Assembly: GCF_947648125.1 (NCBI RefSeq)
Contig: NZ_CANSMR010000015.1
Span: 143,009 to 207,008 of the forward strand
DNA: 64,000 nt
Origin: an uncultured Bradyrhizobium sp.
GTDB taxonomy: Bacteria; Pseudomonadota; Alphaproteobacteria; Rhizobiales; Xanthobacteraceae
Direction of reading: 5' to 3'
Shown: one piece after another, positions 30,983 to 33,110 of the stretch
Layout: every line of letters begins with the position of its first letter
Numbering within the stretch: the stretch's first letter is position 1
Notes under the pieces: model-generated
The model's database searches: none
Seen by the model: the letters and a program-made list of their open reading frames with translations, nothing else
What the model was told of the DNA's origin: nothing
Program-made: the position numbers and the translations under genes

Positions 30983-31641
30983 GCAATACGGCGCGAACCA
31001 TCATGCTGGTCGACGACCACGCCGTCGTTCGGGAAGGCTACCGGGCGATGCTGCAGAAGCAGCCGGGCCTCGCCGTCGTGGCCGAGGCCTCCGACGGCGT
31101 CGAGGCCTACCGCCTTTACAAGGAGACCGGGCCCGACCTCGTCATCATGGACCTGTCGATGCCCGGCATCGGCGGCATCGAGGCCATCCGGCGCCTCAGG
31201 CAGTGGGACAAGCGCGCAAAGATCCTGGTGTTCACCATGCACCAGAACGCGGCGTTTGCCGTGCAAGCGATCCGCGCCGGCGCGAGCGGCTATGTCACCA
31301 AGACCAGCCCGCCGGAGACGCTGGTGCATGCCGTGATGGATGCGCTGTCCGGCAAGATCGCGATCAGTCCGGATATCGACCACGAACTCGCGCTCAGCCA
31401 CCTCGCCGGCGAGCGCGCAGCCGCCGACCTCCTGACTGCGCGGGAATTCGAGGTGCTGCGCATGCTGCTCGCGGAGAAGACCACCGACGAGATCGCCGAG
31501 ACGCTGCACCTCAGCCCCAAGACGGTCGCGAACTTGCATTCCCTGATCAAGGACAAGCTCGGCGTTGGCACGGACATCGAGTTGGTCCGCCTCGCGCTGC
31601 GGCAGGGCATCCTCACGCAGATCGATCTGGGCGAACGGTGA
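30979..31641 (+). CDS. NarL/FixJ-family response regulator
   Basis: Protein of 220 residues: receiver domain (DDH acidic cluster near residue 12, phospho-acceptor Asp in LVIMDLSMPG, Lys in YVTKTS) and LuxR-type helix-turn-helix at the C-terminus (LTAREFEVLRMLLAEKTTDEIAETLHLSPKTVANLH; quoted in part: TDEIAETLHLSPKTVANL). It is translationally coupled to the kinase upstream. Candidate targets are the divergent exported protein gene at 28,397 and its own operon. Confidence 0.94.
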   Translation: MSNTARTIMLVDDHAVVREGYRAMLQKQPGLAVVAEASDGVEAYRLYKETGPDLVIMDLSMPGIGGIEAIRRLRQWDKRAKILVFTMHQNAAFAVQAIRAGASGYVTKTSPPETLVHAVMDALSGKIAISPDIDHELALSHLAGERAAADLLTAREFEVLRMLLAEKTTDEIAETLHLSPKTVANLHSLIKDKLGVGTDIELVRLALRQGILTQIDLGER

Positions 31642-31698
31642 GCCCGCATCGCCGAACGACTGAGGCTGCGCCACGACCGTTCCCGCCTTGCGGGCAGG

Positions 31699-31727
31699 TT
31701 GACGAGACCGGACAGACAATCCAGAAT
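31699..31727 (+). promoter_or_regulatory. Candidate promoter of the Thr leader / thrS-like gene
   Basis: TTGACG (31,699-31,704), a 17-base spacer and CAGAAT (31,722-31,727). Initiation about seven bases on would fall at the leader ATG (31,734), giving a leaderless leader mRNA. The -10 is only a partial consensus match. Confidence 0.45.
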
Positions 31728-31733
31728 AGCAAC

Positions 31734-31811
31734 ATGCGCAACATCTGTTCCATGTCTTTGACCACCGCGACGACCAGCCTTGGCGGGTCGTCTCCTGGTC
31801 GCATGCGGTAA
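31734..31811 (+). CDS. Threonine leader peptide (candidate attenuator ORF)
   Basis: 25-codon open frame containing Thr-Thr-Ala-Thr-Thr (ACC ACC GCG ACG ACC, bases 31,761-31,775), ending TAA at 31,809. An internal ATG at 31,752 gives a 19-residue version. The Thr codons overlap the 5' arm of a hairpin (GACGACC 31,769-31,775 with GGTCGTC 31,786-31,792). Bases 31,782-31,787 (GGCGGG) can instead pair with CCCGCC (31,835-31,840) in the downstream terminator. This is the classic leader-peptide geometry: a ribosome stalled at Thr codons would free the antiterminator. It has no ribosome-binding site and may be leaderless, as the Sinorhizobium trpL leader is. Confidence 0.65.
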   Translation: MRNICSMSLTTATTSLGGSSPGRMR

Positions 31812-31832
31812 CAGACTGCACAACCAGACAAG

Positions 31833-31861
31833 GCCCCGCCGGCGACGGACGGGGCTTTTTT
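31833..31861 (+). terminator. Attenuator terminator before the thrS-like gene
   Basis: GCCCCGCC pairs with GG-A-CGGGGC (one bulged A), followed by six T residues. It stands between the leader stop and the synthetase start, 47 bases before the ATG, so it must be bypassed for expression. Its 5' arm overlaps the proposed antiterminator partner. Confidence 0.8.
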
Positions 31862-31907
31862 CATGCGCAAAACTCGTCCGCGCTGCTTCCAATCAGGAGA
31901 GCATGCT

Positions 31908-33110
31908 ATGGACGATCTCGATCACAGAAGCCTCGGAACGCGTCTCGATCTTTGGCACATCCAGGAGGATGCGCCAGGGATGGTGTTCTGGCATCCGCGT
32001 GGCAACACGCTTTATCGTGTCCTGGAGGACTACATCCGCCGCAAAATGCGCCGGTTGGGCTATGCAGAGGTGCGAACGCCCCAGCTGCTGCCCCGCGAGG
32101 TTTGGATTCAAAGCGGCCATTGGGAGAAATTCGGCGCGCACATGTTCGGCTTTGCCGACGGCGAGCGCGCAATGGCACTCAAGCCGATGTCCTGTCCCTG
32201 CCACGTCCAGATCTTCAACAAGCGCCTGCGCTCCTGGCGCGACCTGCCGCTGCGCTACGCCGAGTTCGGCATCTGCCACCGCGATGAGCCGTCAGGCTCC
32301 CTGCACGGGCTGATGCGCACGCGCGGCTTCGAGCAGGACGACGCCCATGTGTTCTGCCGCGAGCAGGACGTGCCCAATGAAGTCGCCCGCTTCGTTGCGC
32401 TGCTGTCGGAAGTCTATGCCGAGTTCGGCTTCCCGGCGCCTGAGGTGTCGCTCTCCACCCGGCCGGCTGCGCGCGCAGGTTCAGACGAATTATGGGATTG
32501 GGCGGAAACGACCCTTGCCGCGGCCGCGCGCCCATGCGGCCTGTCGTACACGATCCAGCCCGGCGAAGGCGCCTTCTACGGGCCCAAGCTGGAGTTTGCG
32601 CTGCGCGATCGGCTGGGCCGATCCTGGCAATGCGGAACGGTTCAGCTCGACAGCGTTCTGCCGGGCTGTCTCGACGCGTCGTATGTCGGACCGGACGGCA
32701 ATCGCGCGATCCCGGTAATGATCCACCATGCAGTGTTCGGTTCGATCGGTCGCTTCATCGCGATGCTGCTTGAACATCACGCCGGCGCGCTGCCGTTCTG
32801 GCTGTCGCCCGACCAGGTTGCGGTCGCGCCGATCTCGCGTGATCATTACGATTACGCGGTCAAGGTTCTCGATGCACTCGAAGCTCAAGGCATCAGAGGC
32901 GTTCTGTTCGCCGGCGCCGACACGCTGTCGCGACGGATCGTTGCCGCGCATGAGGCGAGTATTCCTGTGGTGGCCGTCGTCGGGCAGCGTGAAGCGCAAC
33001 AGGGCACCGTGAGCCTCCGCGAGCGCGTCGGGGCCGTTTCTGTTTTGCCGTTGGCTGACGCGGTCCGGGCGCTTCGACGGCGTGCTCGTCCGGGCCAGAA
33101 CGCCGAGTGA
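31908..33110 (+). CDS. Threonyl-tRNA synthetase-like protein lacking TGS and editing domains
   Basis: 400 residues against about 640 for standard ThrRS. It starts directly in the class II catalytic core (GMVFWHPRGNTLYRVLEDYI, motif 1 region). Zn ligands are conserved (MSCPCHVQI; CHRDEPSGSLHGLM; PVMIHHAVFGS), as are motif 2 and motif 3 residues, and the anticodon-binding domain is complete (VAVAPISRDHYDYAVKVLDAL). The N-terminal TGS and N2 editing domains are absent. The start is ATG 31,908 behind CAGGAGA. It is preceded by the Thr-codon leader and terminator. It is probably a second, regulated ThrRS used when the main enzyme is limiting or inhibited; that is inference. Confidence 0.88.
   Translation: MDDLDHRSLGTRLDLWHIQEDAPGMVFWHPRGNTLYRVLEDYIRRKMRRLGYAEVRTPQLLPREVWIQSGHWEKFGAHMFGFADGERAMALKPMSCPCHVQIFNKRLRSWRDLPLRYAEFGICHRDEPSGSLHGLMRTRGFEQDDAHVFCREQDVPNEVARFVALLSEVYAEFGFPAPEVSLSTRPAARAGSDELWDWAETTLAAAARPCGLSYTIQPGEGAFYGPKLEFALRDRLGRSWQCGTVQLDSVLPGCLDASYVGPDGNRAIPVMIHHAVFGSIGRFIAMLLEHHAGALPFWLSPDQVAVAPISRDHYDYAVKVLDALEAQGIRGVLFAGADTLSRRIVAAHEASIPVVAVVGQREAQQGTVSLRERVGAVSVLPLADAVRALRRRARPGQNAE

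Follow-up and report, generated by a model that had tools for sequence, protein, structure and literature searches.

In an uncultured Bradyrhizobium sp., a backup threonyl-tRNA synthetase (ThrRS) without the N-terminal (editing) domains is very probably controlled by transcription attenuation through a leader peptide that responds to charged threonyl-tRNA. The locus lies in a 64,000-nucleotide stretch of DNA (the window), and the reading, which was deduced from sequence comparison, is given a probability of about 0.83. Thr-tRNA attenuation logic had been proposed in an earlier sequence-only reading of the locus and is supported by conserved Thr codons and by the conservation of both pairings named there, the leader hairpin 1:2 and the antiterminator pairing 2:3. 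A hairpin over the start of the synthetase gene was missed by that reading.

The leader and the second synthetase

All elements of the locus are located on the forward strand.

31699 to 31704 (+): -35 box TTGACG; the TTGAC spacing recurs across loci
31722 to 31727 (+): -10 box CAGAAT, spacer of 17 nt, from the sequence and aligned promoters
31734 to 31811 (+): leader ORF of 25 codons, probably leaderless, with Thr codons 10, 11, 13 and 14
31769 to 31775 (+): region 1, GACGACC, spanning Thr codons 13-14, from the folds of 31734-31841 and 31765-31795
31782 to 31792 (+): region 2, with GGCGGG (31782-31787) for 2:3 and GGTCGTC (31786-31792) for 1:2
31830 to 31841 (+): region 3, the terminator 5' arm, with CCCGCC (31835-31840) complementary to region 2, from folds
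31842 to 31858 (+): region 4, the GCGA loop and terminator 3' arm with a bulged A at 31849, from fold and alignment
31856 to 31861 (+): T run of the intrinsic terminator, six T, from the sequence
31873 to 31883 (+): region 5, CTCGTCCGCGC, able to pair with region 4 (31842-31853) or around the start codon
31874 to 31916 (+): hairpin 5:6, pairing the thrS Shine-Dalgarno sequence (SD; GGAG, 31896-31899) and part of the AUG, -19.3 kcal/mol
31908 to 33110 (+): second, short threonyl-tRNA synthetase of 400 aa, from profile and Pfam matches

The leader ORF, MRNICSMSLTTATTSLGGSSPGRMR, starts with the ATG at 31734 and stops at 31809-31811. Four codons out of five specify Thr 5' of a gene for the same amino acid, and the 25-codon frame with Thr-Thr-Ala-Thr-Thr was present where it had been placed. 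A T-tailed hairpin between leader and synthetase was likewise confirmed. Its stem spans 31830-31858 with the loop GCGA, the T run reaches 31861 and the ThrRS ATG follows at 31908; with its six T, it has the features of an intrinsic terminator. The Thr codons lie on the 5' arm of 1:2 as claimed, GACGACC facing GGTCGTC, and this hairpin was also seen in the predicted fold. The pairing claimed between region 2 and the terminator was found as well, GGCGGG being complementary to CCCGCC, and the predicted 2:3 fold agrees with it.

The short ThrRS matched NCBIfam TIGR00418 with 447.5 bits (cut-off 383.65) over profile positions 172-558 and the Pfam domains tRNA-synt_2b and HGTP_anticodon. It is N-terminally truncated and consists of the class II core and the anticodon-binding domain only. 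In an alignment to solved ThrRS, the catalytic signature was kept, the FYGPK glycine included, and the Cys of MSCP, the His of DDAH and the His of VMIHH found their counterparts; we take this Cys and the two His to be the zinc ligands of ThrRS. With a profile score above cut-off and this alignment, the enzyme thus shows a catalytic core, the presumed zinc-ligand positions and an anticodon domain. It had been called a second ThrRS, which proved correct as a full-length ThrRS with 48% identity is encoded on contig C16 of the same genome.

Conservation of the leader and its promoter

Short-ThrRS loci were gathered by protein search alone, which makes the test independent of RNA similarity. To count as a leader, a suitably placed ORF had to contain three or more Thr within seven codons; terminators were recognised by a script. 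Within the genus Bradyrhizobium, 39 of 265 genomes contained an orthologue at E <= 1e-130. A Thr-rich leader was found at 38 of these 39 orthologues, and leader ORF and scripted terminator occurred together at 37. One of the two exceptions, L096, has two Thr codons left in its leader and an intact terminator; the other, L120, has a somewhat different T-tailed hairpin that is visible by eye. L096 (genome G080), with the leader ALTATAY, is a natural Thr-codon variant in which terminator and synthetase remain.

A wider protein search, of which the best 80 loci were retained, yielded 17 short ThrRS genes and 63 non-short ones. All 17 short loci among these best 80 carried a Thr-rich leader. Five of them are Bradyrhizobium contigs already contained in the genus sample, and the 12 new ones belong to an Azospirillaceae MAG, Inquilinus, Acidocella, one unplaced bacterium, Paraburkholderia (two), Burkholderia (two) and Myxococcota (four). 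As a control, 61 of the 63 non-short loci were testable with approximately placed start codons. None of these 61 full-length loci among the best 80 had leader plus terminator; an ORF passing the loose Thr rule was observed at 10 of them, none with a terminator too.

Before counting, L003 was removed as its 28% match is not a ThrRS orthologue, and L027, with a frame open 360 nt upstream by chance, was assigned to the short class by hand. When loci found by the RNA model were included, at least three Thr in seven codons were present at 112 of 114 short ThrRS loci, the RNA-model-found part being biased by construction. The Thr codons of the L133 leader are dispersed. Partially matching short ThrRS copies were observed at L089, L121, L088 and L119, one with an internal TGA, and the leader is still located 5' of each.

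In the protein tree, a 100/100 branch separated the 30 short ThrRS sequences from the 17 full-length ones. Given the sampling of the tree, leader and truncated synthetase therefore appear to have been inherited together. Concerning the proposal to align orthologues and see whether the Thr codons and both pairings co-vary, their conservation reaches well beyond Bradyrhizobium, but covariation of 1:2 was not detected in the swap test.

The promoter lies outside the RNA model. TTGAC occurred 35-39 nt 5' of the leader start at 98 of 102 distinct loci and at 23 of 27 diverse loci (clustered at 85% identity); the box was absent from the leaders L009, L012, L134 and L199. The distance was 35 or 36 nt in 88 of these 98 loci if an upstream in-frame start was permitted and in 85 of the 102 with the first-chosen start, while TTGAC at 34-38 had a frequency of 0.0024 in shuffled upstream DNA. 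Counting about six bases on from the -10 box, which follows the -35 box at a 17-nt spacing, places the predicted transcription start at or within one or two bases of the leader ATG. The leader mRNA is probably leaderless, as strongly suggested by the constant TTGAC-to-ATG spacing across loci and as had been supposed. Sinorhizobium trpL is a proven leaderless leader according to the excerpts of PMC7298713 and PMC10117765.

Pairings and the hairpin over the thrS start

With enough Thr-tRNA(Thr), a ribosome on the leaderless ORF would reach the stop codon, 1:2 and then terminator 3:4 would form, and transcription would stop. With Thr-tRNA(Thr) in short supply, we infer that the ribosome would stall at Thr codons 10-11 (31761/31764) and cover region 1 with its front, to about 31775. 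Region 2 would then pair with region 3, and RNA polymerase would read through. Stalling is more plausible at the first Thr pair, since the footprint of a ribosome halted at codons 13-14 would extend into region 2.

The nascent RNA of the window (31734-31841) was predicted to fold into 1:2, a hairpin that covers the regulatory codons. When bases up to 31775 were masked, mimicking a ribosome with its A site at Thr codon 10, it folded into 2:3 with -28.7 kcal/mol. Terminator 3:4 has -21.0 kcal/mol, and the predicted fold of 31734-31930 holds 1:2, 3:4 and 5:6. Judging from the overlapping pairings and the nascent-RNA folds, 2:3 is exclusive with both 1:2 and 3:4. At equilibrium, 3:4 (-60.6) was favoured over forced 2:3 (-55.6) in RNA 31776-31930, so antitermination would have to be kinetic. 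In the equilibrium fold from 31776 on, region 2 is also engaged with the beginning of thrS.

Over the 27 diverse leaders, 1:2 had a mean z of -1.7 against dinucleotide shuffles and -1.4 against same-peptide codon shuffles. For the window alone, the values were -1.1 and -0.5, only slightly more stable than shuffles, and the case for the attenuator therefore rests on conservation. Only seven of the 27 were protein-found and the others came from the RNA model, which includes regions 1 to 4, so that the pairing tests are not fully independent. In swap tests, 2:3 was better for a leader's own partner than between loci (p 0.011). A double substitution at L009 turns GGCGGG:CCCGCC into GGTGGG:CCCACC, by which 2:3 is kept and one terminator pair is spoiled. 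The swap tests were null for 1:2 (z -0.03) and 3:4 (z +0.9), the arms of which scarcely vary. Terminator pairs were standard in 98.2% of the alignment cells over 17 sequences, and column covariation in these 17 was uninformative for the terminator, which hardly varies.

T tracts were poor outside the Bradyrhizobium type. Among 101 distinct loci, 49 had at least four T in a row close to the stem, 47 had three and five had two at most. The last group includes three Myxococcota of the 27 (L020, L027 and L046). At these three and at L047, a Thr leader and a hairpin were observed with no T run after 3:4, which suggests that the Myxococcota loci are controlled at translation instead.

After the terminator, hairpin 5:6 would sequester the thrS SD and part of the AUG, and its arms covary strongly. 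In the swap test, own arms paired far better than arms from different loci (z -6.2; none of 5000 permutations reached this), and 5:6 is outside the RNA model. The arms vary by clade: the window has TCGTCC paired to GGACGA at the AUG, and L140 and L011 have CTCCGT paired to ACGGAG at the SD. Against shuffles, the mean z over the 27 was -1.5, with 19 below and eight above -1. The control pairings 4:6 (z +1.8, own partners worse) and 3:5 (z +0.5) had no excess in the swap tests. Read-through RNA would thus meet a second gate, 5:6 burying SD and AUG, and freed region 4 could pair with region 5 and might release the SD.

Pairing 4:5 comprises 11 pairs with -20.4 kcal/mol in the window. Its mean z against shuffles of the downstream stretch was -1.85 (21 of 27 below -1), compared with -0.50 for leaders of asd, the aspartate-semialdehyde dehydrogenase gene (named from protein sequence alone); the asd value comprises 15 of 21 leaders with approximate start codons, as four had no scripted terminator and two were too close to the start. 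The swap test for 4:5 was weak (p 0.046). When 2:3 was forced on the window RNA, the predicted fold kept 5:6 and not 4:5.

Two readings of these data have to be weighed. A plain attenuator, in which 2:3 versus 3:4 governs transcription, 5:6 passively restrains leaky read-through RNA and 4:5 is incidental, arising from the resemblance of region 4 to the SD/AUG region, has nearly an even chance. It would account for the strong covariation of 5:6 beside the weak one of 4:5, for the retention of 5:6 in the window's forced-2:3 fold and for the little or no 4:5 excess in L181, L154, L011, L012, L046 and L199. It fits less well with the strong 4:5 in the window (z -4.3), L094 (z -6.0), L202 (z -3.9) and L127 (z -3.3) and with the fact that 4:5 is stronger at ThrRS leaders than at asd leaders. 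The other reading is a relay from antitermination to SD release via 4:5, with 1:2, 3:4 and 5:6 formed in the OFF state and 2:3, 4:5 and a free SD (6) in the ON state. Since forced 2:3 leaves 5:6 in the predicted fold, the relay is put forward tentatively. With similar reserve, an old six-segment relay is conceivable that was kept together with one truncated-ThrRS lineage in Alphaproteobacteria, Burkholderia, Paraburkholderia and Myxococcota and in which one stalled ribosome would gate both transcription and translation. The Myxococcota version, without T run, may be purely translational.

Related leaders, known systems and other explanations

At E <= 0.01, a covariance model built from 17 leaders found matches in 92 of 385 alphaproteobacterial genomes, many of the matches being weak. 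Thirty loci were fetched from these matches, of which 13 precede a short ThrRS gene, 12 asd and five other genes. The asd leaders contain mixed Thr/Lys, sometimes Met, codon runs. The genome of the window itself has such a locus (L224, contig C2, 53788-53905), where a Thr/Lys leader, MITATKRTTKTTKPSGASGGVRA, and a terminator precede asd, so that the genome has a second attenuator built in the same way. In the asd leaders L129, L130, L131, L136, L144 and L146, a hairpin of the GTCTC..GGAGAC type was observed around the likely SD, 3' of the terminator, which parallels the arrangement at the ThrRS leaders. The post-terminator hairpin at the 15 asd loci had a mean stability z of only -0.44, with start codons being approximate.

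Matches at E <= 1e-6 were obtained in 108 of the 144 genomes of the genus to which the Paraburkholderia record L013 belongs, via more than one kind of leader, and 33 of 37 inspected loci precede a short ThrRS gene. Among 40 further loci inspected, 15 are located before a short ThrRS gene and nine before asd. A Thr-run leader ending in GGS was observed in L203-L206 of the same genus and in the look-alike L207; in L203-L206, the gene that follows encodes an isochorismatase-like hydrolase (named from sequence). L209 has a Thr leader as well, and its ThrRS match starts 0.9 kb further on. In L135/L228 (Bradyrhizobium) and L211, a leader-like ORF with NR(N/K)HMTR and the same kind of terminator precedes a gene starting MPPQQTN, and L137 and L145 contain a similar ..AAMTRSGG.. 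ORF. The RNA-model matches L217, L219, L220, L222, L223 and L225 look unrelated and were left out of the leader counts.

Rfam describes the Thr-rich leader attenuator of the E. coli thr operon as Thr_leader, and T-box is also a family name. No Rfam family matched anywhere in the window at gathering threshold. At E up to 1, 31600-31950 gave three weak, unrelated matches, none of them relevant. Attenuation of the trp type, as in E. coli trp, thr and pheST, combines a short codon-rich ORF, exclusive pairings 1:2, 2:3 and 3:4 and an intrinsic terminator with a gene for the same amino acid. The Bradyrhizobium locus shares the codon-rich ORF, the exclusive pairings, the intrinsic terminator and the same-amino-acid target. 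It differs in that the target is a truncated second synthetase, the leader is probably leaderless and an extra SD/AUG hairpin is present, the 5' arm of which is complementary to the 3' side of the terminator. The kind of control is already known; the locus is set apart by the Thr version, its target, its spread and the terminator-to-SD arrangement.

A precedent at synthetase genes comes from bacilli, where His leader peptides are predicted before two hisS paralogues, likewise as attenuators at duplicated aminoacyl-tRNA synthetase genes (PMC2965389). Those leaders use His codons and belong to Firmicutes, and in the excerpts of that source neither a sequence relation nor an SD-hairpin relay is described; threonyl-tRNA synthetase is named there once, for autoregulation in E. 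coli. Caulobacter crescentus has a leader-like small CDS before trpS, also an alphaproteobacterial synthetase gene but not thrS, with no mechanism given in the excerpts of PMC4117421. At B. subtilis tlrB (yxjB), one leader peptide controls both transcription and translation; there, stalling is tylosin-dependent and an overlapping antiterminator is not identified in the excerpts of PMC6851288, whereas the present leader would be a codon-run sensor with 2:3.

The claim that no alphaproteobacterial Thr leader of this kind is described held for ThrRS genes, as no leader peptide before a threonyl-tRNA synthetase gene was found in the open-licence PubMed Central literature. For Thr leaders at large it needs qualifying, since Sinorhizobium SEP5, a small 5' UTR ORF with six Thr and three Lys codons, has been proposed as leader peptide (PMC10117765). 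SEP5 precedes a gene its authors call aspartate dehydrogenase and resembles the asd leaders of the present analysis; structure or mechanism are not given in the excerpts of that source.

In the alphaproteobacterium S. meliloti, the RNA of the trpL attenuator begins with the leader AUG, as predicted here, but it carries Trp codons before trpE, and trans roles of rnTrpL and peTrpL are shown there, as far as the excerpts of PMC7298713 and PMC10117765 go. By analogy, a terminated RNA or peptide acting in trans might be the selected product of the Thr leader, with cis-attenuation being secondary. This is improbable. The leaderless start resembles trpL (PMC7298713), and the peptide C-terminus GGS..G.AR is often conserved; these codons, however, coincide with region 2, so that RNA pairing alone can explain their conservation, and the leader precedes a synthetase gene in the protein-found sets.

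Still less probable is a drug-inducible arrest peptide sensing a ThrRS inhibitor, with the short ThrRS as inducible resistance enzyme. ObaO, the obafluorin immunity enzyme, is also a second bacterial ThrRS (PMC11252418), and an attenuator would fire on ThrRS inhibition, too. According to the excerpts of that source, ObaO has serine at the position of E. coli Gly463 and residues up to 637, and is thus not truncated, whereas the short ThrRS keeps the FYGPK glycine (residue matched by hand count). An ObaO-type resistance ThrRS was rejected for this hand-counted glycine, and a run of one sense codon would fit tRNA sensing better than an arrest motif. That the hairpin terminates the same-strand response-regulator ORF ending at 31641 and the Thr-rich ORF is fortuitous is hardly credible, as distant bacteria have the same fixed -35-to-ATG distance, Thr run and match between region 2 and the terminator at their short-ThrRS loci.

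With a Thr-tRNA-sensing attenuator before the short ThrRS, leader-peptide control, so far proposed for few synthetase genes, would extend to threonine and to a truncated second ThrRS. Such an attenuator would also suggest why some Bradyrhizobium and Paraburkholderia-group genomes retain a second ThrRS, namely as an emergency supply at Thr-tRNA shortage. The locus would also offer a compact model for a stalled-ribosome signal that is handed from a terminator to a ribosome-binding site. That asd is preceded by RNA of this design suggests a class of leader that these bacteria can reuse.
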